A DNA stretch of 64,000 bases from Marinobacter nanhaiticus D15-8W. GTDB taxonomy: Bacteria > Pseudomonadota > Gammaproteobacteria > Pseudomonadales > Oleiphilaceae. The translations under genes and the position numbers were made by a program. Positions 1,891 through 31,575 of this stretch are shown here, piece after piece. Positions within the stretch are counted from its first letter, which is position 1. Each line of letters begins with the position of its first letter. The notes under the pieces were generated by a model. It was not told the origin of the DNA and ran no database searches. It saw nothing but the letters and a program-made list of their open reading frames with translations. The DNA is taken from contig NZ_AP028878.1 of the NCBI RefSeq assembly GCF_036511935.1, forward strand, positions 1,116,001 to 1,180,000. Direction: 5' to 3'.

Positions 1891-2003
1891 TTAAGTGTCT
1901 GAACTAGCTGGTTTATTTTCCTGCTGGAATGGTGGATGCAATCGCAGTACTGCGTTTTGAAATGTTGCGAAACCAATCAGGACAGGAAAATAGGACGCAC
2001 AAC

Positions 2004-3311: not shown

Positions 3312-3341
3312 GTTCCAGGCCGGATAGGCCATTGAACCGAC

Positions 3342-3370
3342 GGCGGGCGCTGGACATACCAGGGCCCGCC
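3342..3370 (+). terminator. stem-loop in the urtA-urtB gap (attenuator-like)
   Basis: The arms GGCGGGCGCTGG (3342-3353) and CCAGGGCCCGCC (3359-3370) pair over 12 positions with one mismatch around a 5-nt loop. No T-run follows, so it may stabilise the urtA mRNA 3' end or terminate only partly. Such hairpins commonly keep binding-protein expression above that of permease genes. Confidence 0.5.
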
Positions 3371-3424
3371 CATTCCGGCGCCAACCCGGAACAGATTCAA
3401 AGACAATAACCAAGGAAAGCCATC

Positions 3425-5047: not shown

Positions 5048-5050
5048 TCG

Positions 5051-16653: not shown

Positions 16654-16737
16654 TAGATCTGTCGAGCTCTTTGACTTCCTGACCACTGTTATGCATACAA
16701 ATAACCCTGCGATAGCATCTTTTAATAGGGAATTGTG

Positions 16738-18513
16738 ATGAAATCGATATTTACCGGTACCTTCGATGAGTTGAAAGAAAGACTAAGCTCCATTGGAGGT
16801 GATTGGGACGAGAGCCAAGCCAATAAGAAAGTTCTCCGCCTAAATGGTGGAGTGATGAATTGGTATGAAAGTACTGGAACTATTCAGTTCCAAGGAAAAG
16901 ATAAACCAAGAGCGAAATTGGAAGATTTAGTGCTGTCGTGCCTAGATCCAGATCATCAACCGAAAGCGACAGCTGATCCAATAGAAGAGGGAGTAAGTGG
17001 TGAGCCCAAAGACAGCACCGAGGACTCAACTCCTGAAAGAGGGAGTGTTGGAAGAGCATATCTAGATGGTGTATTTGAAAACTCTGAGATAGTGATTGGC
17101 TTAGTAAGTGCTGTGGGCACAGAAACAACTAGAGTGGTCACCCCCCTGAAAGATCGGCTATCACATTTTGGATACGATGCAAAAGAGATAAAGGTCTCTT
17201 CATTGCTCGTAACCGATGGATCAGCAGCAAATGAGTACGAGCGAATAAAGTCTTTAATGGATGCTGGCGATCAGCGCCGAAAAGACACTAAGCTTAATTC
17301 AATACTCGCTTATGGGGCCGCCAAACTAATTTCCGATAAGCGAGATGAAGCAAAGCCTAAGAGAGCTTACATCATTAATTCTCTGAAACATCCCGATGAA
17401 GTAGAGGCCCTTCGGAAGATTTATGGGCAAGGGTTCTATTTGTTTGGTGTCCATGCCGAAAAGAAGAGAAGACTTCATTATCTGACTAATGACAAAAATC
17501 TAAGTGACCCACAGGCGATAGAGCTTACTGATATCGATGAAGACGAAAAGGTAAAGCATGGTCAACGCACCCGAGATACATTCCATCTTGCCGATTTCTA
17601 TATAAACTTTGGGAAAAATGACGATCAAGTAAAAAATACTGTTCAAAGATTTCTCGAGCTTATATTTGCTCACCCTTATAAAAATCCAACGTTTGATGAA
17701 TTTGCAATGTTCATGGCATTTTCAAGCTCGGTTCGATCGGGTGATCTTTCTCGTCAAGTTGGTGCAGTGATTGCGAGAAATGATCAAATATTGTCTACAG
17801 GTTCTAATGAAACTCCGAGGAAAGGTGGAGGGCTTTACTGGGCCAAGGTTGACGGTGCAAGTGGAAAGGTGATAGACGAGCAAGATGGAAAAGATTACAC
17901 AAGAAATGAAGATTCTAACAAGGTAGAGCAGCAAGAGATATTATCGGAGATTATGCGAGGTGTTAAGCAGGTCTCTGGCCTGACCGAAGCTCAAGCGAGT
18001 GAAGTAGAAATGGTTCTCAACCATAGTAGAATTAAAGACTTGACTGAGTTTGGAAGGGTTGTTCATGCCGAGATGGAAGCTATTTTATCATGTGGCAGGG
18101 CTGGAATATCAACAATAGACGGTACTCTCTACTGCACCACATTTCCGTGTCATAACTGCGCAAAACACATTATTGCAGCAGGAATTAAAAGGGTGGTTTA
18201 TGTCGAGCCCTACCCGAAGAGCAAGGCCCTTGAGTTTCACTCAGATTCAATTGAATTGAGGACAAAGTTGGAGTCAGATGGGAACTCAGAAAGCAGTCAT
18301 GTTGTTTTCGAGCCATTTACCGGCGTAGGCGCGAGACGCTTCTTAGACTTTTTCTCAATGAGTCTTGGCGGTGGAATCAAGCTAACCAGAAAAGGAAAAG
18401 ATGGGAAGATCGTAGATTGGGCGAAAAGTACTGCCAACGTTAGGGTGGCATTATTGCCTGAGTCATACAAAGAAATTGAACGTGATGCGGCTGAAATATT
18501 TCAGCAAAGCTAA
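16738..18513 (+). CDS. predicted anti-phage dCTP/dCMP deaminase with N-terminal extension
   Basis: This 591-residue protein has three parts. Residues 1-60 form a small domain ending ESTGTIQFQGK, which recalls the TBP-like N-terminal domain of RNase HIII (weak, by eye). After an acidic linker, residues about 105-330 resemble the P-loop-kinase-like region of defensive deoxycytidylate deaminases (IVIGLVSAVGTETTRVV, SLLVTDGS). The C-terminal deaminase has zinc ligands in VHAEMEAIL and CTTFPCHNCAKHI. Known members deplete dCTP during phage infection. The ATG at 16738 follows TAGGGA. AT content is higher than in the urease block, suggesting transfer. Assignment to the defence family is by motif and layout only. 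Confidence 0.8.
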   Translation: MKSIFTGTFDELKERLSSIGGDWDESQANKKVLRLNGGVMNWYESTGTIQFQGKDKPRAKLEDLVLSCLDPDHQPKATADPIEEGVSGEPKDSTEDSTPERGSVGRAYLDGVFENSEIVIGLVSAVGTETTRVVTPLKDRLSHFGYDAKEIKVSSLLVTDGSAANEYERIKSLMDAGDQRRKDTKLNSILAYGAAKLISDKRDEAKPKRAYIINSLKHPDEVEALRKIYGQGFYLFGVHAEKKRRLHYLTNDKNLSDPQAIELTDIDEDEKVKHGQRTRDTFHLADFYINFGKNDDQVKNTVQRFLELIFAHPYKNPTFDEFAMFMAFSSSVRSGDLSRQVGAVIARNDQILSTGSNETPRKGGGLYWAKVDGASGKVIDEQDGKDYTRNEDSNKVEQQEILSEIMRGVKQVSGLTEAQASEVEMVLNHSRIKDLTEFGRVVHAEMEAILSCGRAGISTIDGTLYCTTFPCHNCAKHIIAAGIKRVVYVEPYPKSKALEFHSDSIELRTKLESDGNSESSHVVFEPFTGVGARRFLDFFSMSLGGGIKLTRKGKDGKIVDWAKSTANVRVALLPESYKEIERDAAEIFQQS

Positions 18514-18615: not shown

Positions 18616-19467
18616 ATGGAGAACCTGATTTTCCGGATGGAAGGCGGAGCTTTCTCTGATGGATACAGATTGGACAAAATGGTTTCAGGGCTCCATGGCA
18701 CCCAACAAATTCTTGAAGGTGTGTATAAGGGTGTTACTGGTAAATCACGTCTTTCAAAAAACGACCGAGAGCTCTACAAACTAATAGCGGAAGACGTTCA
18801 GTCAGGAAGTCTGCTTGTTTATCTAGGAGCCCTTTTCTCTGGTGTTCAGCAGACGCTTCCATTTCTTCCGTCTTTGTCTCCTGAGGATATGTGGGAATAC
18901 ACCAAGGCTAGTGCAGCCTTCTTGTATGATGTTTACAAAGCTGCTCACGAAGGAAAGTCCGTGACCCTTCACCAAGAGGGTGAAAATACTGCGGTAGTCA
19001 CTGAGGGAAACGAAAATACCGTTCATGTCTACCATGGTCCGGTTTACCAAATTGCCACCCAGATTATTACGGGGTTTCGTACTCTGGACGATGCATTAGA
19101 AGAAGATAATGTTAAAGAAATAACCCTTGGCTCAAAGTATGAGAAAGAACCTGCCATAAAAATGCCTTTCGGAGAAAAGGGCTTGTACTATCCACCAGTT
19201 TCTGTGGATGAAGAGCCCAAAACAATAAACTGTGATATTTTCGATTTCAATAAATATGATCGCATCGGAAAACTTAGGGTTTCCGAATCTCAACAACTTC
19301 CTGAGGGAAACTACAAGTTTAAAGTGATTGGCAGGCAAGAAGTTGAAGATTACATTTTGTCGATGACTGAAAAACAAGTAGAGATACACTGCTTGGTGGA
19401 GTACGAGAACGACCCTCTTCGAGAAACCCGGATCGGCAGCCTGCTCATTATCGACGTGGCTGCATGA
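18616..19467 (+). CDS. hypothetical protein downstream of the deaminase
   Basis: This 283-residue soluble protein of unknown function starts MENLIFRMEGGAFSDGYRLD. Its N-terminal half resembles uncharacterised domains that occur as lone accessory genes. The C-terminal third (residues about 205-280, PEGNYKFKVIGRQEVEDYIL onward) is beta-rich and may be OB-like. It follows the deaminase by 102 bp on the same strand and shares its low GC. It could be a partner or simply a second cargo gene. No enzyme motif is seen. Confidence 0.55.
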   Translation: MENLIFRMEGGAFSDGYRLDKMVSGLHGTQQILEGVYKGVTGKSRLSKNDRELYKLIAEDVQSGSLLVYLGALFSGVQQTLPFLPSLSPEDMWEYTKASAAFLYDVYKAAHEGKSVTLHQEGENTAVVTEGNENTVHVYHGPVYQIATQIITGFRTLDDALEEDNVKEITLGSKYEKEPAIKMPFGEKGLYYPPVSVDEEPKTINCDIFDFNKYDRIGKLRVSESQQLPEGNYKFKVIGRQEVEDYILSMTEKQVEIHCLVEYENDPLRETRIGSLLIIDVAA

Positions 19468-19471
19468 AAAG

Positions 19472-19498
19472 AACTAATGGGGCCAGAGCACATAATTA
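19472..19498. repeat. short dispersed repeat (GGGGCCAGAGCACATAA type)
   Basis: AACTAATGGGGCCAGAGCAC and following bases lie directly after a stop codon. Related copies occur at 20157, 20263, 21050, 22020 and 33278. They share the layout of the RAYT element end (GGGGTCAGA..., then a T-rich stretch) and may be decayed ends. Confidence 0.55.
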
Positions 19499-19614
19499 TT
19501 GGTCGCTGTTGTTGATAAAACCCTACTGTTCACTATTTATTACATTTTCGAAGTAGGGGTGCTTTTTGTTTGTGTTAAGCTGGTTTAGATATAAAAATAT
19601 ATAAGGAACTTGTT

Positions 19615-20148
19615 TTGAAGCTAAAGAACGCTGTTGTGTTATTGCCGTTTTTGTTAAGCGGTTGCGGTATAAGTTTTGGGCCTGAAAGCGCTGTTGAAGA
19701 CACCTCCATAGCCGAAATGATTGTTTACTCTCAAGTCATGAGGGATACGAATGACGAACAGATTGAGCGGCTTATGGACAAACTTCACGAAGTCGCGCCT
19801 TTTGACGTCGACACTACCATAGGCGACGGTGTTGATGAATGCGACTCGATAACCGATTTTTCAGTGCATTCAAACTCAGACGGGCAAGATGGATACGTGG
19901 TGGCATCCCGTTTCACAATTGACGACACCTTCAGCGTTCGACTGAATTTTGTTGGCAGGGGGCTTGATATGGGGCTAACGACTGCGTTCAAAGAACTTTA
20001 TTTAATGAACATGACTATCAGTCAAGGCGACAAGCGTTTGTATGCCGGTGACGGTCGATCTGAGGCAACCGCCAAAATGCTGAGGCTATTGCTTGTTGAT
20101 TGCTCAATTGGCGACATGCTGAAGGGCTACGTAGCCAGCCAACGTTGA
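19615..20148 (+). CDS. predicted lipoprotein, unknown function
   Basis: This 177-residue product begins with a lipoprotein signal (VVLLPFLLSGCGISFG, lipobox LSGC), so it should be anchored in an envelope membrane. The start is TTG at 19615 after AAGGAAC, as no ATG fits. No domain is recognised in the mature part, which is acidic with three further Cys. It is an isolated gene in a same-strand series of orphan envelope proteins. Confidence 0.6.
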   Translation: MKLKNAVVLLPFLLSGCGISFGPESAVEDTSIAEMIVYSQVMRDTNDEQIERLMDKLHEVAPFDVDTTIGDGVDECDSITDFSVHSNSDGQDGYVVASRFTIDDTFSVRLNFVGRGLDMGLTTAFKELYLMNMTISQGDKRLYAGDGRSEATAKMLRLLLVDCSIGDMLKGYVASQR

Positions 20149-20156
20149 GTCAACAG

Positions 20157-20216
20157 GAATTAATGGGGTCGAGTGCACATTTTTTTTTTGATCAGCTCTG
20201 ACTCCATAGCCTCATA
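20157..20216. repeat. RAYT-end-like repeat, extended copy
   Basis: GGAATTAATGGGGTCGAGTG, then a T-run and GATCAGCTCTGACTCCATAG follow a stop codon. The order of blocks matches the transposase element end (GGGGTCAGATCGATTTAATT, then TTGACCAACTCGGCGTAGCC). This links the GAGCACAT family to the RAYT element. Confidence 0.5.
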
Positions 20217-20262
20217 GACAGAAAGCGGAGTCTGATTGTTTTTCCGCCATAGATCATTGAAG

Positions 20263-20289
20263 AGTTAAAGGTGTCAGAGCACATATTTG
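20263..20289. repeat. short dispersed repeat (GGTGTCAGAGCACATA type)
   Basis: GTTAAAGGTGTCAGAGCACA and following bases form another copy in the same gap as the extended repeat, and repeat the TTAAAGGTGTCA form seen at 22020. Confidence 0.5.
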
Positions 20290-20398
20290 TTAATCACAGT
20301 GGGCTATACGCCTGCGAGCAGGTGTTTACCTGATCGTTTTTATTTTAGCGGCCGTTACTCCATACATTCTTAGATTTCCTTGCCTGGAGCTGTAGTTA

Positions 20399-21049
20399 AT
20401 GAAGTTCTCCGTTTCTCTGATTTTCCCGATGGTCTCCCTGCTTTTTCTGGCCGGTTGCGCGAGCCAACAACGGATAAGTGGTGAGGCTTTGTCTGGTGTT
20501 GAAGGCGTATATCTCATTACTGAGCACACGAGCCCCAAAATCGGCTACACGGGCCCTTCTTTGGCTTGGGGAGCCGCCATTGGCGGAGCTATAGGCGGGC
20601 TTCTGGCATCTCAGGATGACGCTTCTGAACTAGAAATTATTGAAGCCTTTCTGGAACAGCAGGAGATTGATCTGACCGGTCAGGCTAATAGGGAGCTTGC
20701 AGCAGGACTGCGTGCGCAGACGCCTCGTTTCGAGATTGTCGAATCATACCAAGACAGCGACGCTCGATTCTTTTTGGACTCGCTCAAGTTGAGTTTTGTG
20801 AGTTCCAACCCTTTAACCACCAGCGTGATGCCAACAGTCGAGATCAAAGGTTCGTTTTTGCGCAACGATGGTGCGTCGGTCTGGGAAGGTTCGCACCAGA
20901 CTAATATTTACACCATATCGACTGAAGACGGTCGCAATCTCGAGGAGTGGATGTTGGAACCCGAATTTGCTCGGCAGATTATTGAGCAGTCAGTAAGTAT
21001 TGCAGTGGACGGCCTGGTCAGCGATTTTGCGGCCTCTATCGAGAATTGA
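20399..21049 (+). CDS. predicted lipoprotein with Gly-rich segment
   Basis: This 216-residue product has a lipoprotein signal (MVSLLFLAGCASQQ, lipobox LAGC) and a short Gly/Ala segment (WGAAIGGAIGGLLAS, residues about 57-71) of the glycine-zipper kind. The remaining roughly 140 residues have no recognised domain. The ATG at 20399 is the first in frame; no strong ribosome site is seen. It is single, on the same strand as its neighbours, and flanked on both sides by short repeats. Confidence 0.65.
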   Translation: MKFSVSLIFPMVSLLFLAGCASQQRISGEALSGVEGVYLITEHTSPKIGYTGPSLAWGAAIGGAIGGLLASQDDASELEIIEAFLEQQEIDLTGQANRELAAGLRAQTPRFEIVESYQDSDARFFLDSLKLSFVSSNPLTTSVMPTVEIKGSFLRNDGASVWEGSHQTNIYTISTEDGRNLEEWMLEPEFARQIIEQSVSIAVDGLVSDFAASIEN

Positions 21050-21121
21050 GGAATTAAAGGGGGAGAGCACATATTTTCGAGGGCATATGTTTCAATCAAC
21101 TCTGATACTTTAGCCTCAATA
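21050..21121. repeat. RAYT-end-like repeat after a stop codon
   Basis: GGAATTAAAGGGGGAGAGCA at the stop codon is followed by CAATCAACTCTGATACTTTA, which corresponds to the TTGACCAACTC block of the transposase element ends. It is a decayed extended copy. Confidence 0.5.
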
Positions 21122-21200
21122 TCGTGCCAGCTCAATTTGATTTCACACGGGCGTGTTGCTTTGAATGCAGGCTCAACTAACGACTAGGATCTTCTGATAC

Positions 21201-22022
21201 ATGACTTTTTCTGCCTTAGACATTGGGATTGTCATCAGTGCGTTACTGGCGTCAGTAGGTTACTTATATAAGCTTGGTGTAGAGAAGCGTCAAAGTGCCC
21301 GATATCTATTGTTTCATCTTTTAGAAATTCGTCACGAGCTAAGTCTCAGGTTGCCTCGGTCAGATCATGAAGTTGAAAAACTGCAGGAAGACTTTCGAGC
21401 AGTCGTAGGCGAGAGAACTAATCTTTTAAAAATCGTCGATATGTTGCCGAAAACGGAACTTGGGGCAATGCTCGGGACTGTAACGAATGGGTTAAATAGA
21501 GTCGATTCTAGTCTTCTCGATAGCTACGAGGTGGCGCTTGCGAACTATGCTCGTATTGATCCTTTCCTCACGCATCGGCTGCGAGGGATGAAGTTGATTC
21601 CTAAGCTCTCGAAAAACCTGGATTCAACTCTTTCTTCATTCAGAAGCTTACCTGGCTTGGCTGAAGACGATCCAGACACACAAAAGGTGGCAAGTTATGG
21701 TGCACGGCAACTGAATCGAGAGTTCGACGATACCAGAGACGGTTTGTTGGCAAAGCTGGACCAGTTGATCCTATCTGTCGGACGAGAGGCTGGCCTATTT
21801 ATGTGGTTTAGAGCTTGGAGGGTGCTTTCGCAGGCGGAAGAAGAAAATAGTAACGAACAGGAAGTAAGCGAAGCGCAGCAAGCCGCTTTGGGCAGCGCCT
21901 TTAAGACGCTAATGATTGAGGTTCTAGTACAGGATGAGAGCATAAAGGGGCAGTTAGAAGCGGCCCCCTTGGAAGAAATGCTAGATGCTATGGAAGAGAA
22001 GCTTGGCGAAACTGTAAGTTAA
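21201..22022 (+). CDS. membrane-anchored hypothetical protein
   Basis: This 273-residue product has one N-terminal membrane segment (IGIVISALLASVGYLYKLGV, residues about 8-27) and a long, charged, helix-rich cytoplasmic part with coiled-coil character. No catalytic motif is seen, and the acidic tail ends EEKLGETVS. Its function is unknown. It belongs to the same-strand series of orphan envelope proteins between 19.6 and 23.3 kb. Confidence 0.6.
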   Translation: MTFSALDIGIVISALLASVGYLYKLGVEKRQSARYLLFHLLEIRHELSLRLPRSDHEVEKLQEDFRAVVGERTNLLKIVDMLPKTELGAMLGTVTNGLNRVDSSLLDSYEVALANYARIDPFLTHRLRGMKLIPKLSKNLDSTLSSFRSLPGLAEDDPDTQKVASYGARQLNREFDDTRDGLLAKLDQLILSVGREAGLFMWFRAWRVLSQAEEENSNEQEVSEAQQAALGSAFKTLMIEVLVQDESIKGQLEAAPLEEMLDAMEEKLGETVS

Positions 22023-22043
22023 AGGTGTCATAGCACGTATTTA
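22020..22043. repeat. short dispersed repeat after a stop codon
   Basis: TAAAGGTGTCATAGCACGTA overlaps the stop of the preceding gene and matches the repeat at 20263 except for single changes. Confidence 0.45.
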
Positions 22044-22145
22044 TAGCGGCAGGATTTGAACTATTGGTGTCGGACTGATTTAGTTCACCTTTGCGTTGCC
22101 AATATTTGCCGTTGCTATACTAGAGACAAGGTAGTGAGACAGTTC

Positions 22146-22742
22146 ATGGTTATCGAAGTTGGTGAAATCTACTCCAATAGTACGACCATCAAGTTGTTGG
22201 CCCGTGAGGGCGAGGTGCTTGATGCTCGAACCCACGCAGGTACGAATTACAGAACGACTAGGCACGGTAAAAAGGTTACTTTGCACCAAGATAATTACGA
22301 GTCGACGGCCTTTTGGGTTCGTTGGGAAGATGGTTCGCAAGATGAGTTGCAGTCGCTGCCCGGTTCGGTAACAGCCCTGCCAGGACAACGCTTACGTGTT
22401 ATTTTCGCTAGCAACGGTCGTTGGGAGCTGTCTGACTTGGCTCGAATCAATATGAGCTCAAACAGATATTCAGTTATTCGATCTGTGGATTATGTTGCAG
22501 AGACAATTGCGGAAAAACTCTTTGGTAAAGGCGAGCGATATATCGTACCAGGGGTCCTCTCACTTGCGCTGGCTTTTGGAGTTTTTAAATACACAGAAAT
22601 AGCATCGCTTGCAATTTTATCTATCACTAGCTGGCCATTCTTTCAGTTCGTAGTGAATATGCCTTATAAGCGGTTGTTGAAAAAAATAAAAAATTCCGTT
22701 CTGCCGGCCATCGATCGAGCTAGCAATGCAAAGTTTCAATAA
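22146..22742 (+). CDS. hypothetical protein with C-terminal membrane segments
   Basis: From the ATG at 22146 (MVIEVGEIYSNSTTIK) the product has 198 residues. The frame is open upstream to 22056, but that part is Cys-rich and looks non-coding. The N-terminal half is a soluble beta-rich domain (TAFWVRWEDGSQDELQSLPG), and the C-terminal part has two membrane segments (YIVPGVLSLALAFGVFKY and ASLAILSITSWPFFQFVV) with a Lys-rich end. Unknown family. Confidence 0.55.
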   Translation: MVIEVGEIYSNSTTIKLLAREGEVLDARTHAGTNYRTTRHGKKVTLHQDNYESTAFWVRWEDGSQDELQSLPGSVTALPGQRLRVIFASNGRWELSDLARINMSSNRYSVIRSVDYVAETIAEKLFGKGERYIVPGVLSLALAFGVFKYTEIASLAILSITSWPFFQFVVNMPYKRLLKKIKNSVLPAIDRASNAKFQ

Positions 22743-22824
22743 AATTAACCTATTAGAAGGGGTGATTATATATTTATTATGAGCATTTAGGCGGTTGCTT
22801 TTAATAAGTAGTGTTGGAGTTTTT

Positions 22825-23271
22825 ATGGATCCTATTCAAGCAGGTGTTTTTGAAGTAAAAAGACAGGCGAAGAAAGTGAAATTTAATGTATCTGTGTTCT
22901 GCGCATCGATGAGGGAAAGTTCGAGGAATTTTTCTAAGATTCGAGACGATGACATGGATTTGGATCGTAAGCTTAAAGAGAGCATAGGTCTAGCTCTGTC
23001 GAGACAGAGCGGGGATGAGGCCTCTCCCTCTTATTGGAGTTTTCGCGTCGATTCTCACGCTATGTCTATGGGAACGTTTAGCAAACTTTATTCCGTAATG
23101 ATTGCAGCTCTAGGCTTGTCGTGTACATATCTTTTTACGAATGATGATATGCCGCTCTTGGTCGTCTCTGTGCTTACTTTATTTATTCTAACTAAAGCGA
23201 AATGGGGTATCGATAAATATTGCGAAGCTCTAAATCGAATTTCGCTTGCTCTGAAAGATATAAATAGATAG
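22825..23271 (+). CDS. small two-TM hypothetical protein
   Basis: This 148-residue product starts at the ATG at 22825 after TTGGAG. The N-terminal part is soluble and basic (FEVKRQAKKVKFNVSVF). Two membrane segments follow (LYSVMIAALGLSCTYLF and PLLVVSVLTLFILTKA), then a short cytoplasmic tail. No recognised family. The last of the same-strand orphan envelope genes before the intact transposase element. Confidence 0.55.
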   Translation: MDPIQAGVFEVKRQAKKVKFNVSVFCASMRESSRNFSKIRDDDMDLDRKLKESIGLALSRQSGDEASPSYWSFRVDSHAMSMGTFSKLYSVMIAALGLSCTYLFTNDDMPLLVVSVLTLFILTKAKWGIDKYCEALNRISLALKDINR

Positions 23272-23316: not shown

Positions 23317-24150
23317 GGGGTCAGATCGATTTAATTTTGACCAACTCGGCGTAGCCCGTCGTTTTAGCTAGAATCCCAAATTCCCGAGCCAACGGATTGG
23401 CTTAACCACCCAAATGGATTTGACTCATGCCCCGAAAGACCCGGATGTATCTGCCCGATATCCCCGTTCACGTGGTCCAGCGCGGTCACAACCGGGATGC
23501 CTGTTTCTTCGCCGAAGAGGACTTCCGCTATTACCGTCAGGTGTTAGGGGAGGGCATGAAGCGTTACGGCGCCCGGCTTCACGCCTATTGTCTGATGACC
23601 AATCATGTTCACCTGTTGATAACCCCAGACGAAATCGACAGCATCTCCCGGTTGATGCAGCACGTCGGTCGCCAATATGTGCAGTACGTCAACAAGACCT
23701 ACCGTCGTTCGGGCACGCTTTGGGAAGGCCGGCACAAAGGCAGCCTTGTCGATGCTGAGAACTATCTGTTGAGCTGCTATCGCTATATCGAACTTAATCC
23801 GGTCACGGCTTGTATGGTGGAACGCCCCGAAGAATATCCCTGGAGCAGTTTCCGCTTCAATGCACTGGCTGAACCGGACACCCTGATATCCCCGCATCCG
23901 CTTTTTGAGTCTTTGGCCAAGGATAGGTTCGAGCGTGGGTCGGTTTATCGGGACCTCTTCCGGTCTCATTTGCCAGAGAAGACCCGCAGCGATATCGCCG
24001 CGAGCGTTTCGGCGAGTCGGATACTGGGCAGCGGTCGATTTAAGGAACAAGTTGAAGCTGCCCTCGGGCGCAAGGCGGGTCAGATCGGACGGGGGCGACC
24101 AGCCAATTGTAGTTGATCAAATTTAAATCGATCTGACCCCCGGGGCGGAC
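23317..24150 (+). mobile_element. RAYT-type element, intact copy with inverted ends
   Basis: The left end GGGGTCAGATCGATTTAATT (23318) and the right end, reading CCGGGGGTCAGATCGATTTA on the other strand, form inverted repeats of about 30 bp around a transposase gene. A second copy is at 30607-31431, and remnants of its ends are spread over the accessory region. After the right end, pieces of the tail are repeated (24150-24187 and 24189-24296), so insertions are nested. Confidence 0.8.
23427..24116 (+). CDS. REP-associated tyrosine transposase (RAYT, Y1 / IS200-like)
   Basis: This single-strand DNA transposase has 229 residues. The HUH metal-binding motif is in MTNHVHLLITP, and the likely nucleophile Tyr lies in LLSCYRYIELNP, both typical of TnpA_REP proteins. 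The C-terminal tail (GRKAGQIGRGRPANCS) is the part most often found in remnants elsewhere in the window. It has full length and no frameshift, so it is potentially active and could move the dispersed ends in trans. Confidence 0.93.
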   Translation: MPRKTRMYLPDIPVHVVQRGHNRDACFFAEEDFRYYRQVLGEGMKRYGARLHAYCLMTNHVHLLITPDEIDSISRLMQHVGRQYVQYVNKTYRRSGTLWEGRHKGSLVDAENYLLSCYRYIELNPVTACMVERPEEYPWSSFRFNALAEPDTLISPHPLFESLAKDRFERGSVYRDLFRSHLPEKTRSDIAASVSASRILGSGRFKEQVEAALGRKAGQIGRGRPANCS

Positions 24151-24572
24151 CCATCAAATTTAAATCGATCTGACCCCCGGGGCGGACCATCGATTCAAGG
24201 AACAGGTTGAAGCGACACTCGGGCGTAAGGCGGGCCAGATTGGACGGGGGCGACCAGCCAGTATTGGTTGATCAAAATTAAATCGAGCTGACCGGGCCGG
24301 ACTCCAGGCGAGCCTTCGGCGAAATTGATCTGCCCCGCGGCGATTCCGGCGATTTCATCAAAAGTAAATCGAACCAGGCTGAGTAACATTGTATCTAGAA
24401 ACGCTGAGCTATGATTACTTGCCTTATATCAATTGTGTAGCACAGCCGGTGAGCTGATGCTATGTATAATTGTCCGAGAGCCCCAAAATAGAATGCATTT
24501 CCTTATTTTGCTTTAGCCCCGACGCCCAACGCTTGTTGCCTTACGCCAGCAGTATAGAAAGAGGAATTAAAG
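24117..24572. repeat. nested RAYT tail fragments and AT-rich spacer
   Basis: The region holds two adjacent copies of the element right end (TTTAAATCGATCTGACCCCC at 24123 and again about 35 bp on) and a third tail copy with about 100 bp of transposase C-terminal coding sequence (24189-24296). From about 24300 a further decayed stretch and an AT-rich leader run to the acetyltransferase gene. No other gene was seen. Confidence 0.7.
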
Positions 24573-25040
24573 ATGGAATTAACCTTGGATAGCATAGTTC
24601 CACAACATGCAGAATTCCTCAGTCAAATAGAACTAGATAAAACACAGCAAGAATACATAGGTGGATTGGACAACTATTGTAATGTCCAATCTGGAGAGCT
24701 TATTTTAATGGTGAAGCTAGATGATACGCCCATAGGCGCGATGAAACTAGACTTTGAATACAGTAGTACCTATTGCTTCGCGACTACTAATGAAATAGGT
24801 TTGCGTGGAGTTATGATAGATAGGAAGTTTCAGGGGAGAGGATATGGGCTAGAAGCTATCCTTCAACTAAGGCAGTTTGTTTCTAAATACTATAAAAATT
24901 ATACCGCTATCTGTCTAACCGTAAACCATAATAATACGCAAGCTTATCGATGTTACTTGAAGGCAGGCTTTGTGGACATAAATAAAGATTACAATGGCGG
25001 AGCCCTAGGTCCGCAGCGAATTATGAGATTGGAAATTTAG
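24573..25040 (+). CDS. GNAT-family N-acetyltransferase
   Basis: This 155-residue protein has the acetyl-CoA-binding motif A (VMIDRKFQGRGYGLEAI with QGRGYG) and the motif B region NHNNTQAYRCYLKAGF, as in diamine or ribosomal-type acetyltransferases. GAGGA lies before the ATG. It has low GC like the rest of the island and sits beside a LysR regulator and an opine-like biosynthesis operon. It could modify the amine product or protect the host, which is inference. Confidence 0.85.
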   Translation: MELTLDSIVPQHAEFLSQIELDKTQQEYIGGLDNYCNVQSGELILMVKLDDTPIGAMKLDFEYSSTYCFATTNEIGLRGVMIDRKFQGRGYGLEAILQLRQFVSKYYKNYTAICLTVNHNNTQAYRCYLKAGFVDINKDYNGGALGPQRIMRLEI

Positions 25041-25062
25041 TCAAACAACAGGAAGGTTGATT

Positions 25063-25992
25063 ATGTCCAAGCCGTCTTACAAGTCTCTAGAGGTCTTTGA
25101 AGCAGTCGCGAGACTTAAGAGTTATGCAAAAGCAGCAAATGAGCTTTGCATCGATTACACTGGGGTCTCCAAGCATGTCAAAGCGCTTGAGGCATATTAT
25201 AACTTGAGGTTAATTGGGAAGCCAGGTAAGGAACTGGAGTTAACCGCGGTCGGTGAGGATGTCGCTAATCGGCTTTCGATTGGCTTTGAAGCTATTAACT
25301 CTGCTTGCTCGGCGATGCGTGATAACCCTAAATTAGAAGTGAAAGTTCCCGTAACCTTTGGGTTGAGATGGTTGCTGGAGAATGCTCCGTACGAGCTTTT
25401 AGGAGATAATGTTAATTTTCATATAGCTTGGCGACATTCGGTAGACTTCCTTCAAGAACGATTTGATCTGGCCATAATTTTTTCCGATGAGGTTTCAACG
25501 AATTACTTTTACAAAGAAAGATTAGTGGCGGTGGCCGATCCCCTATATCTTGAAAAGTTCCTGTCGAAGGGAAAAATTGATAAAAATAAAATTAAGGAAG
25601 CGGTATTAGTTAGTCCCTCTATTAATAAGTCTGACTGGTACGTATATTTTGCGCGAAGCCAACTTAACCAGTCGTTAATAGAGGAGGCAAAAATTTTAGT
25701 GGCCGATTCCATGAATTCGGCCTTAGATATTGTTGAGAGAATAGGCGGTATTACCGTTGTAGATATACTGTACGTACAGAAGGAATTAGAGTCCGGTAAG
25801 CTGATTCCTGTATTTGATTACATTGTTGAAACAGGTTTAGGCTACAAATTAGTATGTCCGAAGACTATGGAAGACTCTAGAATTTATAGGAGCTTCCTCG
25901 ATTGGTTGGTGACGCATCCTTGCCTTATCGACTCGGCGAGTTTGTCAAAACTTAAGTTACGGCTAATACCTTGGACTAATGAAAGCGTATGA
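25063..25992 (+). CDS. LysR-family transcriptional regulator
   Basis: This 309-residue protein has an N-terminal winged helix-turn-helix (SLEVFEAVARLKSYAKAANE ... GVSKHVKALEAYYNLRL, residues about 5-50) and a LysR substrate-binding domain (VPVTFGLRWLLENAPYELL onward), with a GcvA-like layout. The ATG at 25063 after GGAAGG is chosen over a TTG at 25057. It ends 20 bp from the convergent end of the exporter gene, so it probably controls the island operon from a distance or its own promoter. Confidence 0.85.
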   Translation: MSKPSYKSLEVFEAVARLKSYAKAANELCIDYTGVSKHVKALEAYYNLRLIGKPGKELELTAVGEDVANRLSIGFEAINSACSAMRDNPKLEVKVPVTFGLRWLLENAPYELLGDNVNFHIAWRHSVDFLQERFDLAIIFSDEVSTNYFYKERLVAVADPLYLEKFLSKGKIDKNKIKEAVLVSPSINKSDWYVYFARSQLNQSLIEEAKILVADSMNSALDIVERIGGITVVDILYVQKELESGKLIPVFDYIVETGLGYKLVCPKTMEDSRIYRSFLDWLVTHPCLIDSASLSKLKLRLIPWTNESV

Positions 25993-26011
25993 CTTGACTA
26001 ATTTTGAGGTC

Positions 26012-26893
26012 CTAAGTTTTTCGAGCCAAGATTTTTAGCGTTTTAAATTCTGTTGTAACTACCAACGTTGTAGATAAAATAAACAAGCTACCGATGGCCA
26101 TCTTCCATGTGGGAGGTTCGTCAAAAAATATCCAGCCTAATGAAAATGCAACTGGAACTGAGATATAAGATATTTGAGATGCCTTTTGGACGCTGCCATA
26201 TCTAAAACCTACGATCATGAAGTAACTATAAATGGAGCCCAGTATGGCAATAATAAATGCCATTGAGACTACATTAATATCTAAAGGTCTCCATTCCTGC
26301 AAAGATAACGGCGCGGAGATAAAAAAAGTAGAAATTGCGAGCCAGAACATCAAGGAGAATGCATTTTCTTCTGCGCCCCATTTCTTTGTCAAAACATGCA
26401 TCAGCGCATAAGAAGTAGCAGCTATAATGGGAGCTAGCGCTTCAATCGAATAATCGGAATGGCTTGTATCATTTATATATACCACTGCTAGAAAGCCGAA
26501 TAGTCCACATATGATATCCTTAGCCGAAGGTCGTTCGTTGAGTAAAAGGATCGCAAAGGGTATAACAAATATGGGTTCTGCAAACATAATAGTGACAACA
26601 ATTGCTAACGGTACAGTGCTTAGTGAATAAAATAGCGCGAAAGAACCAATGCAATTTAAAATCGCTCTTGCGAAATAAATCTTTTTACATCTTATACTTG
26701 TGCTGATTGTCCGGCGGCGGTACAGGACCGGCAGGAGGAGCAATATCGCAAAGAACCATCGCATGGTTAGCAATTGCCATGTTCCGATTTCCTGTCCTAA
26801 GCTTTTTACTACTGCGTCCATAACGGTCCCGGCAATTACGGCGATAAATACAAAGAACATCGCCTTGCGATCACGAAGTAGGGGCATATTCAT
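26012..26893 (-). CDS. EamA/DMT-superfamily exporter
   Basis: This inner-membrane exporter has 293 residues, about ten membrane segments and the two EamA repeats (first from AVIAGTVMDAVVKSLGQEIG, second from LAPIIAATSYALMHVLTKKW). It is the last gene of the leftward island operon and overlaps the synthase gene by ATGA, so it should export the product of that pathway. EamA exporters play this role for opine metallophores such as pseudopaline (CntI), which is the basis of the analogy. Confidence 0.88.
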   Translation of the reverse strand: MNMPLLRDRKAMFFVFIAVIAGTVMDAVVKSLGQEIGTWQLLTMRWFFAILLLLPVLYRRRTISTSIRCKKIYFARAILNCIGSFALFYSLSTVPLAIVVTIMFAEPIFVIPFAILLLNERPSAKDIICGLFGFLAVVYINDTSHSDYSIEALAPIIAATSYALMHVLTKKWGAEENAFSLMFWLAISTFFISAPLSLQEWRPLDINVVSMAFIIAILGSIYSYFMIVGFRYGSVQKASQISYISVPVAFSLGWIFFDEPPTWKMAIGSLFILSTTLVVTTEFKTLKILARKT

Positions 26894-27936
26894 AATTCCA
26901 AATCCGCTACAGAATTCCGTTTTGTTGTAATATAACTGGGCTTCGACAATACGCTCTTCAAGAATCTATAGGTCTGTTTGCAGTACAGCCCTCGCTCTTC
27001 TAGCCATGTGTTATTGAATACCGTTGACAAATACTTTTCTCCTCCATCGCAAACCAAGCATAATGACGTGCCACTTCCAGAGTATCCAATTGAACGTCTT
27101 ACCGCCTCATAGATGGCTCCGCCGGCGGAACCTCCGACAAGCAGTCCATGTTCTTGTGCTAGGTATTTGCACGTTGTAAACGCTTTTTGGTCGTTCACTA
27201 TGACACCCTCATCTAGTAGCGATGGCTTATAGATGACTCCTATTTTGTCCCCGGGCGGCACTCCTGTACCGCTTTGGTAGTATGGTCCGCCAGGATAGCC
27301 GAATACTGTGGATCCCTTCGGTTCCACGCCAATTACTTTCAAATTGGGAATCTCATCTTTTAGAACTTGTGCGGTTCCGGTTAATGAGCCACCTGTTCCG
27401 ACGCAGGCGATAAACTCGTCGAGGTCTGGGCCTACGTCGCTCAGTATTTCTTGTGCGAGGGTAAGCGCATACCCTTTTGGGTTTGAAAAGTTATTTGATT
27501 GGTCGAAGAATACTGCTCCAGGTATTTTTTTAGCCAATCTTGCCGCTGTCGCTTCCCTTTCCACCGTTGCGACTTCATTATCGGCATAATCGCCTTGGAT
27601 CATATGTATTTCGCCACCATAGGCTTTTATGGTGTTAATCTTATCTTCTGCCGCATGATGATCTACAACCGCAATGAACCTAATTCCGAGTTCAGACGCT
27701 ATGTAAGCGATTCCCGTAGCCGTATTTCCGGAAGAAGACTCAACAATAACGCCTTCTTTAGTCAATCTACCGCTATCCAGAGCATCAAAAATCATCTGTC
27801 GAGCCATGCGATCTTTCATGCTCATCCCAGGATTAAATTTTTCGATCTTAAGTAACAGTCTCCATTTGCTATTTAGAAGTCCCATTTCTAATATGGGCGT
27901 TCCACCAATCATCTGATGCATAGCTTTATAAATCAT
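26890..27936 (-). CDS. SbnA-like PLP-dependent synthase (cysteine synthase fold)
   Basis: This fold-type II PLP enzyme of 348 residues has the Schiff-base Lys in NPGMSMKDRMA, the substrate loop ESSSGNTATG and the phosphate loop GTGGSLTG. The best match by eye is SbnA, which joins O-phosphoserine and glutamate into an opine-like adduct (ACEGA) on the way to 2,3-diaminopropionate, rather than housekeeping CysK/CysM. It carries a C-terminal extension after the core. It overlaps the exporter by four bases and lies ten bases from the decarboxylase gene. Confidence 0.82.
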   Translation of the reverse strand: MIYKAMHQMIGGTPILEMGLLNSKWRLLLKIEKFNPGMSMKDRMARQMIFDALDSGRLTKEGVIVESSSGNTATGIAYIASELGIRFIAVVDHHAAEDKINTIKAYGGEIHMIQGDYADNEVATVEREATAARLAKKIPGAVFFDQSNNFSNPKGYALTLAQEILSDVGPDLDEFIACVGTGGSLTGTAQVLKDEIPNLKVIGVEPKGSTVFGYPGGPYYQSGTGVPPGDKIGVIYKPSLLDEGVIVNDQKAFTTCKYLAQEHGLLVGGSAGGAIYEAVRRSIGYSGSGTSLCLVCDGGEKYLSTVFNNTWLEERGLYCKQTYRFLKSVLSKPSYITTKRNSVADLEL

Positions 27937-27945
27937 AGTGGGTTC

Positions 27946-29253
27946 CTACATAGCCTCTTCAACGGTCCATGAGATGTCGGTCCGATAGCAATTAAGTGCT
28001 ACCTTTTTCGGGATGGGCAGATGATGAAACCTTGATTCCATAAGGTCCATCTGATATCCGGCAGTATTGTTGAAGACAAGAAGGTCTCCTCGCACGGGGG
28101 AACGTTCAAAGGCTACTAGACGCTTGGTAATAAGGTCGTCCTCTAAACAGCTTTGCCCTGCTATATATGCATACATGGGACGCTTTTTGTTGTTTGTAGT
28201 CCGAGGAATTAATATTGGATCCACGAGGAACTCAGAGTTGCACCAAACTTCGCAGGCGCTGAAACTGAGGCCCCTCACGATTATACAATTATCTCCCAAT
28301 TCGGTTTTTTTAAGCCCAAGTACTTCGAAGACCGAAAATCCTGCGTTATCTACAAGCGCCCGTCCAGGTTCTAAAATCAGCTCTATTCCCAAACTACTCA
28401 ATCGCTCGATGTTGTCGTGGTTTACCAATACTTGGTTTATAAATCTTTCTTTTGAGCTTGAATTCCAGTAGGGGTAGTAATCCTTTGGAGCTTGGTTTTT
28501 GTAAAATTTAGCCTTGGAGATGTTTGCATGATATTGGTTCCAAGATTCCTTGCTGATATAGGAAATGGGAATACCGCCCCCAATATTTACCTTTTCGACG
28601 TCTATACCTTGCTTTTGAAGCTGACTGCTTAGCTCTAAAATGCTCGCAAGACAGCCTGCTCTGTCAAGCGGCGAGTATCCCGGGAGATGAAATGAGAAGC
28701 CTACCAACTTAATATAGCTTTCGTTTTTTATATTTTTCGAAATTCTTTTCAAATCAGAGAAAGGCATGCCATATCGACTGCAAGATACCCCGCCATTCCA
28801 ACGAAGCATTACTCTTGCTGTCTTATTGGTCGATTCGGCAATATTGGTCGTTAGTAACAATTCGTCATATGAATCGACAGCAATTATTGAACCGGCTAAT
28901 ATGCCGAGTTCAATGAACTCATCGGACTTACAAGGACCGGATAAAGAACAGTTGCTGCTATCGGCGCCCCTTGATAGAGCCAGTTTCAGCTCATTTTCAG
29001 ACGAAACATCAATGCCAAGACCTTCTTTGATAGCGGTTTGCAATAACGTGACGGATCGATTGACTTTCATTGCATAATATAAAGTCGATGTGAGCCCCGT
29101 ATATTTTTTTAGCGCTTGCTGTAACTCTATTATGTTGTTTTTCATGTTGTCGGGTAATATCGCGTGTAGCGGCGATGACACTGATAATATCAGTTGTTTT
29201 ATTAGGTCCCGGTAAAAGATAGATGTATCGTTTTTAGGAGGTAGGTTAACCAT
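27946..29253 (-). CDS. PLP-dependent decarboxylase, Y4yA / SbnH-like (fold type III)
   Basis: This 435-residue enzyme has the alanine-racemase/ornithine-DAP decarboxylase fold. The PLP Lys lies in YYAMKVNRS, the Gly-rich phosphate site in VNIGGGIPISY, EPGRALVDNAG is conserved, and the second-subunit Cys lies in GQSCLEDD. Y4yA-type enzymes occur next to SbnA-like synthases, and SbnH plays this role in staphyloferrin B synthesis. It should decarboxylate an amino acid or opine intermediate. The substrate cannot be read from the sequence. Confidence 0.82.
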   Translation of the reverse strand: MVNLPPKNDTSIFYRDLIKQLILSVSSPLHAILPDNMKNNIIELQQALKKYTGLTSTLYYAMKVNRSVTLLQTAIKEGLGIDVSSENELKLALSRGADSSNCSLSGPCKSDEFIELGILAGSIIAVDSYDELLLTTNIAESTNKTARVMLRWNGGVSCSRYGMPFSDLKRISKNIKNESYIKLVGFSFHLPGYSPLDRAGCLASILELSSQLQKQGIDVEKVNIGGGIPISYISKESWNQYHANISKAKFYKNQAPKDYYPYWNSSSKERFINQVLVNHDNIERLSSLGIELILEPGRALVDNAGFSVFEVLGLKKTELGDNCIIVRGLSFSACEVWCNSEFLVDPILIPRTTNNKKRPMYAYIAGQSCLEDDLITKRLVAFERSPVRGDLLVFNNTAGYQMDLMESRFHHLPIPKKVALNCYRTDISWTVEEAM

Positions 29254-29289
29254 TTATCTGTTCCTCGCTACTGCCAGTGTAAGAGGGAG

Positions 29290-30417
29290 CTAATAAATTG
29301 CTTTCTCTGGTATGTAGTCAAGCGCCGACCGAGGGTAGTTAGCACCTATAGTAGATAGCCATCTTTTGAGCTCGGTTAGAAATGGTGTTTCTATCGCCAA
29401 GATTTTTCCAATCTCAATTAATATATCAAGCCCAAATGGTATGTCCTCGCTAAATATTCGATGGTCAAAGTCGAGTTCATATCCTTGCTCCCCTTTTTTC
29501 ATGGGCATTTTTATACTTTTATAAGCTGTATTAGTTTTTATTGTTTTATAAAGTGTAGACTTGTCTTTAACTTGATCTCCATAGATTTTAATAATGTCTT
29601 CTTGTAATGGGATTGCATTGTCCATCTTCATTTGGTAACTATTTCTAATGGTTTTAACCAGCTTTTGTTGCTCTTCATCGGCTCGCTTGACGAAGTATGC
29701 TTCTAGTTCGCTGATGTCCTCATAGAATAGGGGCTGCTGAGAGAAGGGTGTTCCGTCCCATTGGGAGTAGGGTCCTATCTTCCCATATAATATAGGGAGG
29801 TGTTCGATGGGATTACCTGCGCAGAGTGAGAACTCAAGAAAATTCTCGCAGTAGGCTAATTCGGCATCGAATATAGTTTGTAAAATATATTTGGTATGCT
29901 CGATTTTGTCAGTGCTTGGTTTATTTATTGCGAAATAGAGCGTGTTCTTTTCACCTAGTTGAGTAACGCTGACGCCGGGATTTAAATGGGATGCCATAAC
30001 GGGCGTATCCTTCAGGCCCCAAGTTATGATGTTTTTTTCATTGCCGAGCTCTTTCTCTACCAACCAGTGAAAACCTCCCCATCCAGGTATCGCGCCAACG
30101 AATACCCTTTTATTTTTGGATAGGTGAGGTTTTATTTGCTTTAATACTCGTTCTCTGTCGTTTGCGGGGTTAGTTATTAATATGATATCTGCGTGAGGGA
30201 TAATTTCTTTGGCTGCATCGGTCACCTTATCAGGCTTCGCAAACTGTGTTACGTTTTTTGCGGCATGAAATATCGCTATACCGTTATAGTCTTTTAGTTT
30301 CTGTTCGATTTCTTTAGCTTTCCTCGTCAGTATGGAAACCGAATGATTTTTTCCTGAAAGAGTTCCGATCAATGCATGAGCTTGGTTGCCCCCGCCCACT
30401 ATCACAATATTTGCCAT
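29290..30417 (-). CDS. opine/octopine dehydrogenase-like oxidoreductase
   Basis: This NAD(P)-dependent enzyme has 375 residues. The N-terminal Rossmann motif is IVIVGGGNQAHALIG, and the C-terminal octopine-dehydrogenase domain holds the conserved His region LCAGNPIEHLPILYG. Family members reductively join an amino acid to a keto acid, or reverse that step. It is the first gene of the leftward operon, with GGAG upstream of its ATG. It may make the final opine, or it may replace SbnB by oxidatively splitting the SbnA adduct. Both are inference. Confidence 0.82.
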   Translation of the reverse strand: MANIVIVGGGNQAHALIGTLSGKNHSVSILTRKAKEIEQKLKDYNGIAIFHAAKNVTQFAKPDKVTDAAKEIIPHADIILITNPANDRERVLKQIKPHLSKNKRVFVGAIPGWGGFHWLVEKELGNEKNIITWGLKDTPVMASHLNPGVSVTQLGEKNTLYFAINKPSTDKIEHTKYILQTIFDAELAYCENFLEFSLCAGNPIEHLPILYGKIGPYSQWDGTPFSQQPLFYEDISELEAYFVKRADEEQQKLVKTIRNSYQMKMDNAIPLQEDIIKIYGDQVKDKSTLYKTIKTNTAYKSIKMPMKKGEQGYELDFDHRIFSEDIPFGLDILIEIGKILAIETPFLTELKRWLSTIGANYPRSALDYIPEKAIY

Positions 30418-30606
30418 CCTTGCATCTCCGAGAAGATTATTGTGTTGGATGATTTATTAATAACTTGAAAGGTTTTGTTTTTGTATTGAGAAAAAATCCA
30501 TCAGGGTTGAGGAACATGCGATTGATTAGATTTTCTAATAGTTGCTTATTGAGTTTGATTTAGAGGAGGCCGAAGATAAGTGGGGCCTGCTTAGATTGGA
30601 AACGAT
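30418..30606. promoter_or_regulatory. promoter region of the opine-like operon
   Basis: This AT-rich 189-bp stretch lies between the start of the leftward operon and the second transposase element. It is the only place for the operon promoter and for a LysR binding site. No clear T-N11-A palindrome was picked out by eye. Confidence 0.3.
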
Positions 30607-31431
30607 GGGGGGAGCAGAACGATTTTATTTTGACCAACTCTGCGTAGCCCCTCGTGCCAGCTAGAATCCCACGCTCACGAGCCAACGGATTGGCTCAGCC
30701 CCACAAATGGACTTGACCGATGCCACGCAAGACACGGATGTATCTGCCTGGCCTTCCCGTTCATGTGGTCCAGCGCGGCCATAACCGGGATGCCTGTTTT
30801 TCGCAGAAGAGGACTTTCGCTACTACCGGCAGGTATTAGGGGAGGGCATGAGGCGCTACGGCGCCAAGCTTCACGCCTATTGCTGATGACGAACCACGTT
30901 CATCTGTTGGTCACGCCAGACGAGACTGGCAGCATCTCCCGGTTGATGCAGCATGTCGGTCGCCAGTACGTTCAGTACATCAACAAGACCTATCGCCGTT
31001 CGGGGGCACTTTGGGAGGGGCGGCACAAAAGCAGCCTGGTCGATGCCGAGAACTACCTGCTGAGCTGCTATCGCTATATTGAGCTCAATCCGGTCACGGC
31101 GTGTATGGTGGATCGGCCCGAGGAATATCCATGGAGTAGTTATCGCTCCAACGCGCTGGCTGAGACGGACACCCTGATATCCCCGCACCCGCTGTTTGAG
31201 TCTTTGGCCAAGGATAAACTCAAGCGCGAATCCGTCTATCAAGACCTCTTTCGGTCTCACTTAACTGAGAAGACCCGCAACGATATATCTGCGAGCATTT
31301 CGGCGAGTCGTATATTGGGTAGCGGCCGGTTCAAGGAACAGGTTGAAGCTGTTCTCGGGCGTAAGGCGGGTCAGATTGGTCGGGGGCGGCCAGCTAACGG
31401 TGGTTGATCAAAATTAAATCGATCTGGCCCC
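30607..31431 (+). mobile_element. RAYT-type element, second copy
   Basis: The left end (ACGATTTTATTTTGACCAAC) and right end (TTGATCAAAATTAAATCGAT) match the intact element and lie in the same orientation. Together the copies bracket the 24.3-30.6 kb island as direct repeats of about 0.8 kb. The right end abuts the ISL3 transposase remnant. Confidence 0.8.
30720..31407 (+). pseudogene. RAYT transposase, inactivated by two frameshifts
   Basis: Aligned with the intact copy, one base is missing near 30801 (GCCTGTTTTTCGCAGAAG against GCCTGTTTCTTCGCCGAAG) and one near 30884 (TATTGCTGATGACG lacks a C before TGATG), which puts a stop in frame. Downstream of that the frame is open with MTNHVHLLVTP and LLSCYRYIELNP intact to the stop at 31407. 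Overall similarity to the intact copy is high. Confidence 0.88.
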
Positions 31432-31434
31432 GCA

Positions 31435-31575
31435 TTCGGTTACCGCATGCATACCAGTGTGCGGGAAGGCATGAACAACAAGATCAAGGTGAGCAAGCGG
31501 ATGGCCGATGGCTACCGGGACAACGACTACTTCTTCCTGAAGATAAAAGCAGCGTTTCCCGGTAACGTGCGATGA
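31435..31575 (+). pseudogene. ISL3-family transposase, C-terminal fragment
   Basis: Forty-seven codons in one frame end at TGA 31573-31575 and contain NNKIKVSKRMADGYRDNDYF and FLKIKAAFPG, the usual C-terminus of ISL3 transposases. The rest is missing, replaced on the left by the RAYT element end. Confidence 0.75.

Follow-up and report, generated by a model that had tools for sequence, protein, structure and literature searches.

An apparent synthetase-free relative of the proteobactin/rhizobactin-type enzyme core in Marinobacter nanhaiticus and Hahella: a possible route to an exported ethylenediamine opine

Rhizobactin is composed of ethylenediamine, alanine, lysine and malate, according to PMC7676072, and the genes that make up the pbt (proteobactin) operon are described in PMC11026637; rhizobactin 1021, with which PMC12815270 is concerned, is a different compound. 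The relationship between such systems and an operon of M. nanhaiticus D15-8W was studied here by computational analysis. The operon lies in a 64,000-nucleotide stretch (contig NZ_AP028878.1, positions 1,116,001 to 1,180,000; termed the window, within which positions are given) of a 5.4 Mb genome that belongs to the same family as Hahella, and it encodes an opine dehydrogenase (ODH), a decarboxylase of the Y4yA type and a synthase, both of pyridoxal phosphate (PLP)-dependent families, and an EamA transporter. The same three enzymes were found, by tblastn against plasmid records, in nonribosomal peptide synthetase (NRPS)-independent siderophore (NIS) clusters of rhizobia, Serratia and Proteus, and the comparison of sequences places the window operon as an NIS-free branch beside the proteobactin/rhizobactin-type core. 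The genes of the operon and its immediate neighbours are as follows:

29290-30417, minus strand: ODH (Octopine_DH, PF02317), 375 aa, heading the operon; Pfam 105 bits (cut-off 30)
27946-29253, minus strand: Y4yA-type fold-III PLP amino-acid decarboxylase, 435 aa; Pfam Orn_Arg_deC_N 83.8 bits (cut-off 23.4)
26890-27936, minus strand: fold-II PLP synthase, cysteine-synthase superfamily, NIS-cluster synthase subfamily, 348 aa; PALP 200.9 bits (cut-off 35)
26012-26893, minus strand: EamA (DMT superfamily) transporter, presumed exporter; Pfam 99.9 bits (cut-off 28.2)
25057-25992, plus strand: LysR-type regulator, GcvA-like; Pfam LysR HTH 48.8 bits, NCBIfam
24573-25040, plus strand: GNAT acetyltransferase, upstream of lysR; Pfam 41.5 bits

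The operon runs leftward from 30417 to 26012 in the order ODH, decarboxylase, synthase, EamA; the synthase and EamA genes share 4 bases (ATGA, 26890-26893), and the remaining gaps are 36 and 9 bases. A preliminary description of this DNA had reported four packed leftward genes with this overlap and an accompanying LysR and GNAT gene, and all six were found at the stated places, with their families confirmed by Pfam and NCBIfam, the opine-type enzyme set, Y4yA-type decarboxylase and EamA transporter scoring above the Pfam cut-offs. Three other identities were rejected on their NCBIfam scores, namely a plain cysteine synthase (cysK, 204.5 against a cut-off of 350.95), LysA for the decarboxylase (lysA, 132.9 against 297.9) and an unrelated dehydrogenase for the ODH (apbA_panE, 28.8 against 141.35); the cysteine synthase and LysA scores are so far under their cut-offs that the objection that these are plain household enzymes fails. 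In the decarboxylase, Lys63, His189, Glu295-Arg298 (EPGR), Cys369 and Asp373 (Cys-x3-Asp) and Tyr400, the roles of which we assume from LysA and ornithine decarboxylase, were invariant in 27/27 and 30/30 aligned rows (the first alignment held 27 of the 120 listed decarboxylases, and Lys63 was kept in 29/29 rows having a letter at that column). Several relatives of this enzyme carry the NCBI name Y4yA family. The ODH keeps the octopine-dehydrogenase set His206, Arg320 and Asp325, presumably with the same catalytic and substrate-binding roles, and its structure model was closest to octopine/CENDH chains. The catalytic residues of the operon enzymes are intact.

The rhizobial NIS clusters contain genes for a ParB-like protein, which we take to be SbnI-like, Y4yA, the synthase, ODH and an IucA/IucC synthetase, usually together with a major facilitator superfamily (MFS) exporter, a substrate-binding protein (SBP) and a TonB receptor. 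The Serratia and Proteus clusters contain the same genes with the NIS synthetase and receptor in front, and that of Proteus mirabilis matches the pbt operon in make-up; the Y4yA-family gene of pNGR234a also sits in an NIS-type cluster. A decarboxylase (query L012, E<=1e-85) was present within 2.6 kb in 42/47 of the plasmid records with an ODH match, records that are not independent since 22/47 are Sinorhizobium, and in all 42 an NIS synthetase (E<=1e-100) lay no more than 6.8 kb away. The remaining five comprised one phosphonate-type cluster (L009) and four weak matches. The preliminary description had put the operon combination forward as a candidate new one, and the pNGR234a and P. mirabilis pbt clusters contradict this: the combination of the three enzymes is already known from Y4yA-synthase-ODH-IucA/C clusters, the window operon being an NIS-free set with EamA. 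Proteobactin and its relatives share with the window operon related Y4yA, synthase and ODH genes side by side; however, the examined clusters all have the NIS synthetase and ParB-like protein that the window operon lacks. Most also have the MFS exporter, SBP and TonB receptor (L014 and L036 are without SBP and receptor, and L011 without MFS exporter and receptor), and their gene order is Y4yA-synthase-ODH, as opposed to ODH-decarboxylase-synthase-EamA in the window.

The window order of ODH, decarboxylase, synthase and EamA, again with a LysR gene, recurs in four Hahella genomes (L006, L023-L025), and the four-gene set is therefore a recurrent linkage and not a chance cluster, which refutes the chance-only linkage that the co-occurrence check of the preliminary description might have returned. 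The Hahella LysR proteins are 43-44 % identical to that of the window, and the EamA proteins at the same operon place 45-46 %. The lysR gene is convergent with the operon in the window and divergent upstream of it in Hahella, and the GNAT is an uncertain member of the operon because BLASTP (E<=1e-5) returned no counterpart of it in the four Hahella loci.

The operon is rare but recurring. The ODH was found in 5/163 genomes of the family, these being its own and four of the genus Hahella (g5), of which at least three other genomes are without it, and in 4/58 relatives searched. PF02317 was detected in 5/369 genomes of the class, 4 of them above cut-off; among the three others above cut-off, two gave only 22-25 % ODH matches and one gave none, and a check of context in these three genomes returned none of the other operon genes. 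The decarboxylase (E<=1e-30) was confined to its own genome among 369 of the class and was present in 3/398 of the phylum, the two other phylum genomes having NIS-type clusters. A single scan of genome contigs returned one locus, and a phage search gave one 24 % match, in an unannotated record. Marinobacter sp. NFXS9 has homologues of all three enzymes (ODH 66 %, synthase 75 %, and decarboxylase 60 % across 76 % of the query length); its ODH does not share a contig with the decarboxylase or the synthase, and the decarboxylase as listed is truncated N-terminally. A further ODH (67 %) and decarboxylase (58 %), termed P0002/P0010, are presumably on one 36,327-base contig. A 55,399-base contig of Grimontia marina (P0013, P0131) carries a decarboxylase (47 %) and a synthase (60 %), both of the NIS-free group.

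Compared with the NIS-cluster enzymes, the window proteins are 34-37 % (Y4yA decarboxylase), 50-53 % (synthase) and 29-38 % (ODH) identical. In each of the three enzyme trees the sequences of the NIS-free set came out together, with bootstrap values of 96-100 %. In the ODH tree, the window, NFXS9, P0002/P0010-contig and Hahella sequences formed a group at 97/97, rising to 100/100 in a second tree made without five distant rows (ODH_G349, ODH_G541, P0005, P0006 and P0008). The decarboxylase tree gave the same group with Grimontia added, at 97/93, and the synthase tree grouped the window, NFXS9 and Hahella at 97/96, or at 96/93 in a second tree with more rows, Grimontia included and two M. avium rows left out; the P0002/P0010 contig contributed no synthase row. 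Nearest to this group in the trees came the enzymes of NIS clusters, along with some relatives from clusters that were not read. The trees were midpoint-rooted, drew a long-branch warning for ODH and synthase, and contained some rows, those of the window included, that were flagged for odd letter composition. The decarboxylase tree included the Serratia protein as its 414-aa open frame and omitted that of S. fredii L014, the frame of which is in two pieces. In that record (L014 7654-8987, S. fredii CCBAU 25509), it is the NIS-cluster Y4yA gene of a symbiotic plasmid that is split, and three other S. fredii/sojae plasmids likewise match Y4yA in two pieces. The tree place of the ODH of the phosphonate-type cluster was unsettled. 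This cluster (L009 644-14851, Rhizobium sp. 007 plasmid) has an ODH 34 % identical to the window's together with a phosphoenolpyruvate mutase and three aminotransferases, and is a candidate for making a phosphonate opine.

The partners that would complete an NIS or nicotianamine-type pathway were sought by profile and BLASTP searches. The NIS synthetase family (IucA/IucC, PF04183) was matched in 0/8 genomes, among them the window's own and the four Hahella genomes, while an E. coli positive control was matched; a remote synthetase elsewhere in the genome was rejected on the same whole-genome search. Nicotianamine synthase (NAS; CntL-like, PF03059) was found above cut-off in 0/5 genomes, the own genome reaching 20.5 bits against 27.1. 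No SbnB-like gene was detected in the 16-36 kb part of the window or in the four Hahella genomes with the M. avium SbnB-like protein, rather than S. aureus SbnB, as query, and the best that the own genome gave was a 28 % partial match far from the window. The preliminary description was right in reporting no NIS gene and, at the Pfam cut-off, no NAS gene. Homologues of the NIS-cluster ParB and MFS proteins were likewise not found in the 16-36 kb part or in L006 and L023-L025 (BLASTP, E<=1e-5).

Gene content, recurrence, enzyme kinship and the absence of NIS are observed; the reaction steps set out here are proposed throughout. Somewhat more likely than not, the product of the operon is an exported, unacylated 'ethylenediamine opine', that is, the rhizobactin-type aminopolycarboxylate core without NIS acylation. 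The synthase would convert O-phospho- or O-acetyl-serine to an aminoacrylate, to which the alpha-amine of an amino acid would be added. The Y4yA enzyme would then remove the carboxyl group from the serine-derived unit, whose amine is primary at this stage, giving an N-(2-aminoethyl)-amino acid; this step is placed ahead of the ODH step because PLP decarboxylation requires a primary amine. The ODH would couple the product reductively with an alpha-keto acid such as pyruvate, yielding an N-(1-carboxyalkyl)aminoethyl-amino acid, and since there is no NIS synthetase the pathway should stop at this ethylenediamine opine, a multidentate chelator resembling ethylenediamine disuccinate (EDDS) or ethylenediamine diacetate, for which EamA would provide export. 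By analogy, rhizobactin would owe its serine-derived two-carbon unit to the synthase, its ethylenediamine to Y4yA, its N-carboxyethyl 'alanine' to ODH acting with pyruvate and its malate to the NIS enzyme, and the NIS clusters of rhizobia, Serratia and Proteus are, we infer, rhizobactin-like. In rhizobactin and rhizobactin B (PMC7676072) an ethylenediamine bridge is combined with alanine and an amino acid, which corresponds to the output proposed for the three enzymes; the two siderophores differ in bearing malate or citramalate, presumably added by the NIS step that the window operon lacks. The chelator class expected here is also that of [S,S]-EDDS, the ethylenediamine dicarboxylic acid of Amycolatopsis (aes), which we compare by description only. 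The EDDS pathway, unlike the window operon, is not known to include an opine dehydrogenase. No NIS-free ODH-Y4yA-synthase operon was described in the titles and abstract openings of the papers listed by searches of the open-licence literature.

The operon might instead supply a diamine building block to an NRPS or another ligase elsewhere, its own product being an intermediate. Related clusters do have an NIS synthetase beside the three enzymes; however, the own and the four Hahella genomes have none (NRPS genes were not searched), and the fourth gene encodes a transporter that Hahella retains as well, making such a supply role improbable.

Several points weigh against the ethylenediamine opine scheme. 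The window ODH has Ser143 and Glu205, the latter beside the catalytic His206, where the NIS-cluster enzymes have Phe/Tyr and Met, and the substrates of the two ODH types may therefore differ. A Grimontia ODH was not among the 8 ODH matches listed. We know of no assay for any enzyme of the group or for the rhizobactin (DM4) genes, and none of the sequence records matched carried a label naming the rhizobactin DM4 cluster. The tie between the NIS clusters and rhizobactin is our own inference, and PMC7676072 points to other genes, rhbAB homologues, for rhizobactin B. TonB receptor, SBP and FecCD homologues were not found in the 16-36 kb part of the window or in the four Hahella loci (BLASTP, E<=1e-5, Rhizobium Pop5 queries), the rest of the window being covered for importer-type genes by Pfam sampling only; this is weak evidence, because receptor and SBP are likewise missing from the stretches of L014 and L036, both of them NIS clusters of S. 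fredii. Finally, Fur and Zur boxes were sought against shuffled sequences in one further feature:

30418-30762, minus strand: upstream region of the operon

The best Fur-box match there was 11/19, reached by 411/500 shuffles, and the best Zur-box match was 14/23, reached by 16/100 shuffles, so that neither kind of box stands out from the shuffles; values for the HN01 upstream region were similar. The missing boxes, like the missing receptor and importer homologues, are odd for a metallophore. As Fur controls, the NIS clusters of Serratia, Proteus and G750 gave 16/19 (0/500 shuffles), 14/19 (32/500) and 12/19 (306/500), respectively. Since the G750 NIS cluster is also without a box and the Zur search had no positive control, the missing boxes too are weak evidence. 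The operon is likely LysR-controlled.

The preliminary description had proposed a different route, following staphyloferrin B. There, the synthase would form N-(1-amino-1-carboxyl-2-ethyl)-glutamic acid (ACEGA) from phosphoserine and glutamate, and the ODH, working in reverse like SbnB, would free diaminopropionate for further processing by Y4yA. A fold-II synthase and a fold-III decarboxylase are indeed shared with SbnA/SbnB/SbnH, and the synthase resembles SbnA at family level (TIGR03945, 227.6 bits, under the cut-off of 349.95). At the sites of the SbnA substrate residues Arg132, Tyr152 and Ser185 the window synthase has Glu126, Ser147 and Gly180, mostly as in the NIS-cluster synthases. Arg127 adjoins Glu126, and a one-residue shift would align it with SbnA Arg132. 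Because these residues are replaced, the ACEGA/diaminopropionate reading is not supported. The lack of an SbnB gene nearby leaves the cleavage step to another enzyme, as that route would have it, yet the window ODH keeps the octopine-dehydrogenase His/Arg/Asp set and groups in the trees with ODHs whose clusters showed no SbnB-like gene, and the cleavage role has no support. Genes annotated as ornithine cyclodeaminase, presumably the family of SbnB, do stand beside Y4yA in Agrobacterium L033 and M. avium L034; the decarboxylases of those clusters, however, lie across a 100/100 branch. The operon further differs from the staphyloferrin B genes in having no NIS synthetase. We give the SbnA route little credence. 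In L033 (2218-11351, pAt2), ParB-like, SbnB-like, Y4yA-type decarboxylase and synthase genes lie beside phosphoenolpyruvate mutase and cytidylyltransferase genes, and the product is possibly a phosphonate with related diamine chemistry. In L034 (6208-11699, pMAH135), an SbnA-like synthase, the SbnB-like gene, a Y4yA decarboxylase and a MATE transporter make up another Y4yA cluster that is NIS-free, its clade being a different one; among the genes listed over 19 kb there is no NIS synthetase. Overall, the observation made in the preliminary description was confirmed and its interpretation was partly supported.

With regard to the role of an ethylenediamine opine, a secreted metal chelator is the leading guess, held tentatively, because EamA exporters serve pseudopaline-type zincophores, as the preliminary description had stated and PMC7438024 bears out. 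Staphylopine and pseudopaline, the nicotianamine-type opine zincophores, share an ODH and an EamA transporter with the window operon; they differ in that the window genome has no above-cut-off NAS-like gene, and the window ODH may also be of another type, its model being closest to the octopine/CENDH chains. The same chemistry could also serve another purpose, the exported opine acting as an antimetabolite, allelochemical, signal or nutrient store, with the GNAT perhaps acetylating it for self-protection. The GcvA-like LysR regulator, the lack of a Fur or Zur box, the lack, in all five genomes examined, of an NIS-cluster receptor or importer homologue next to the operon and the presence of a GNAT in the same island keep such a role in view; however, the GNAT is missing from the Hahella loci, siderophore clusters carry the same enzyme core and the EamA association with zincophores points the other way, and a non-metal role is accordingly rather unlikely.

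The six genes have GC contents of 38.7-45.0 %, compared with a window mean of 54.5 %, and the operon is bordered by two further features, identified by Pfam, NCBIfam and repeat comparison:

23427-24116, plus strand: REP-associated tyrosine transposase (RAYT), left border
30763-31407, plus strand: second RAYT copy, right border, with a shorter open frame

The two RAYT copies are in direct orientation, with direct repeats of 300, 190, 104 and 86 nt that are 84-88 % identical. The ODH was not found in the five same-genus genomes searched. In G003, of the same genus, the flanks (window positions up to 15839 and 34811 onward) are separated by about 11.3 kb, in which there are several RAYT-type repeats but nothing that matches the operon. 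An operon-free 'empty site' in G001 was rejected, since a RAYT-type repeat overlaps the match on its right. Given this variable region, marked by its GC content, RAYT flanks and absence from same-genus genomes, the operon was probably acquired horizontally. The RAYT regions 23317-24306 and 30610-31442 bear REP-like direct and inverted repeats of 24-36 nt on either side of the operon. A 592-aa protein encoded at 16735-18513 (plus strand) matches the PADLOC anti-phage dCTP deaminase (dCTPase) family (558 bits, E 7e-168) and is likely a defence gene of the same variable region, to judge by this match; the six ORFs that follow at 18616-23271 have no Pfam match. Elsewhere in the window, at 1929-6214, are genes of a branched-chain/urea-type ABC transporter (Pfam).

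An NIS-free and NAS-free 'ethylenediamine opine' family in Hahella, Marinobacter and their kin, making EDDS-like aminopolycarboxylates with three enzymes, EamA export and LysR control, is a possibility to which we assign a little less than an even chance. If it exists, opine-type chelators would have a third biosynthetic logic, next to that of the nicotianamine type and that of the type finished by NIS, and the NIS-free set could be either the ancestral core of rhizobactin and proteobactin or a stripped-down descendant. In the operon, the core that forms the opine in rhizobactin-like siderophores stands apart from acylation, which offers a four-gene minimal set for the enzymology of that core. 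Were the product EDDS-like, the operon would provide a three-enzyme route to a biodegradable substitute for ethylenediaminetetraacetic acid (EDTA), and there would be an enzymatic account of the Y4yA clusters found in rhizobia, Serratia and Proteus.

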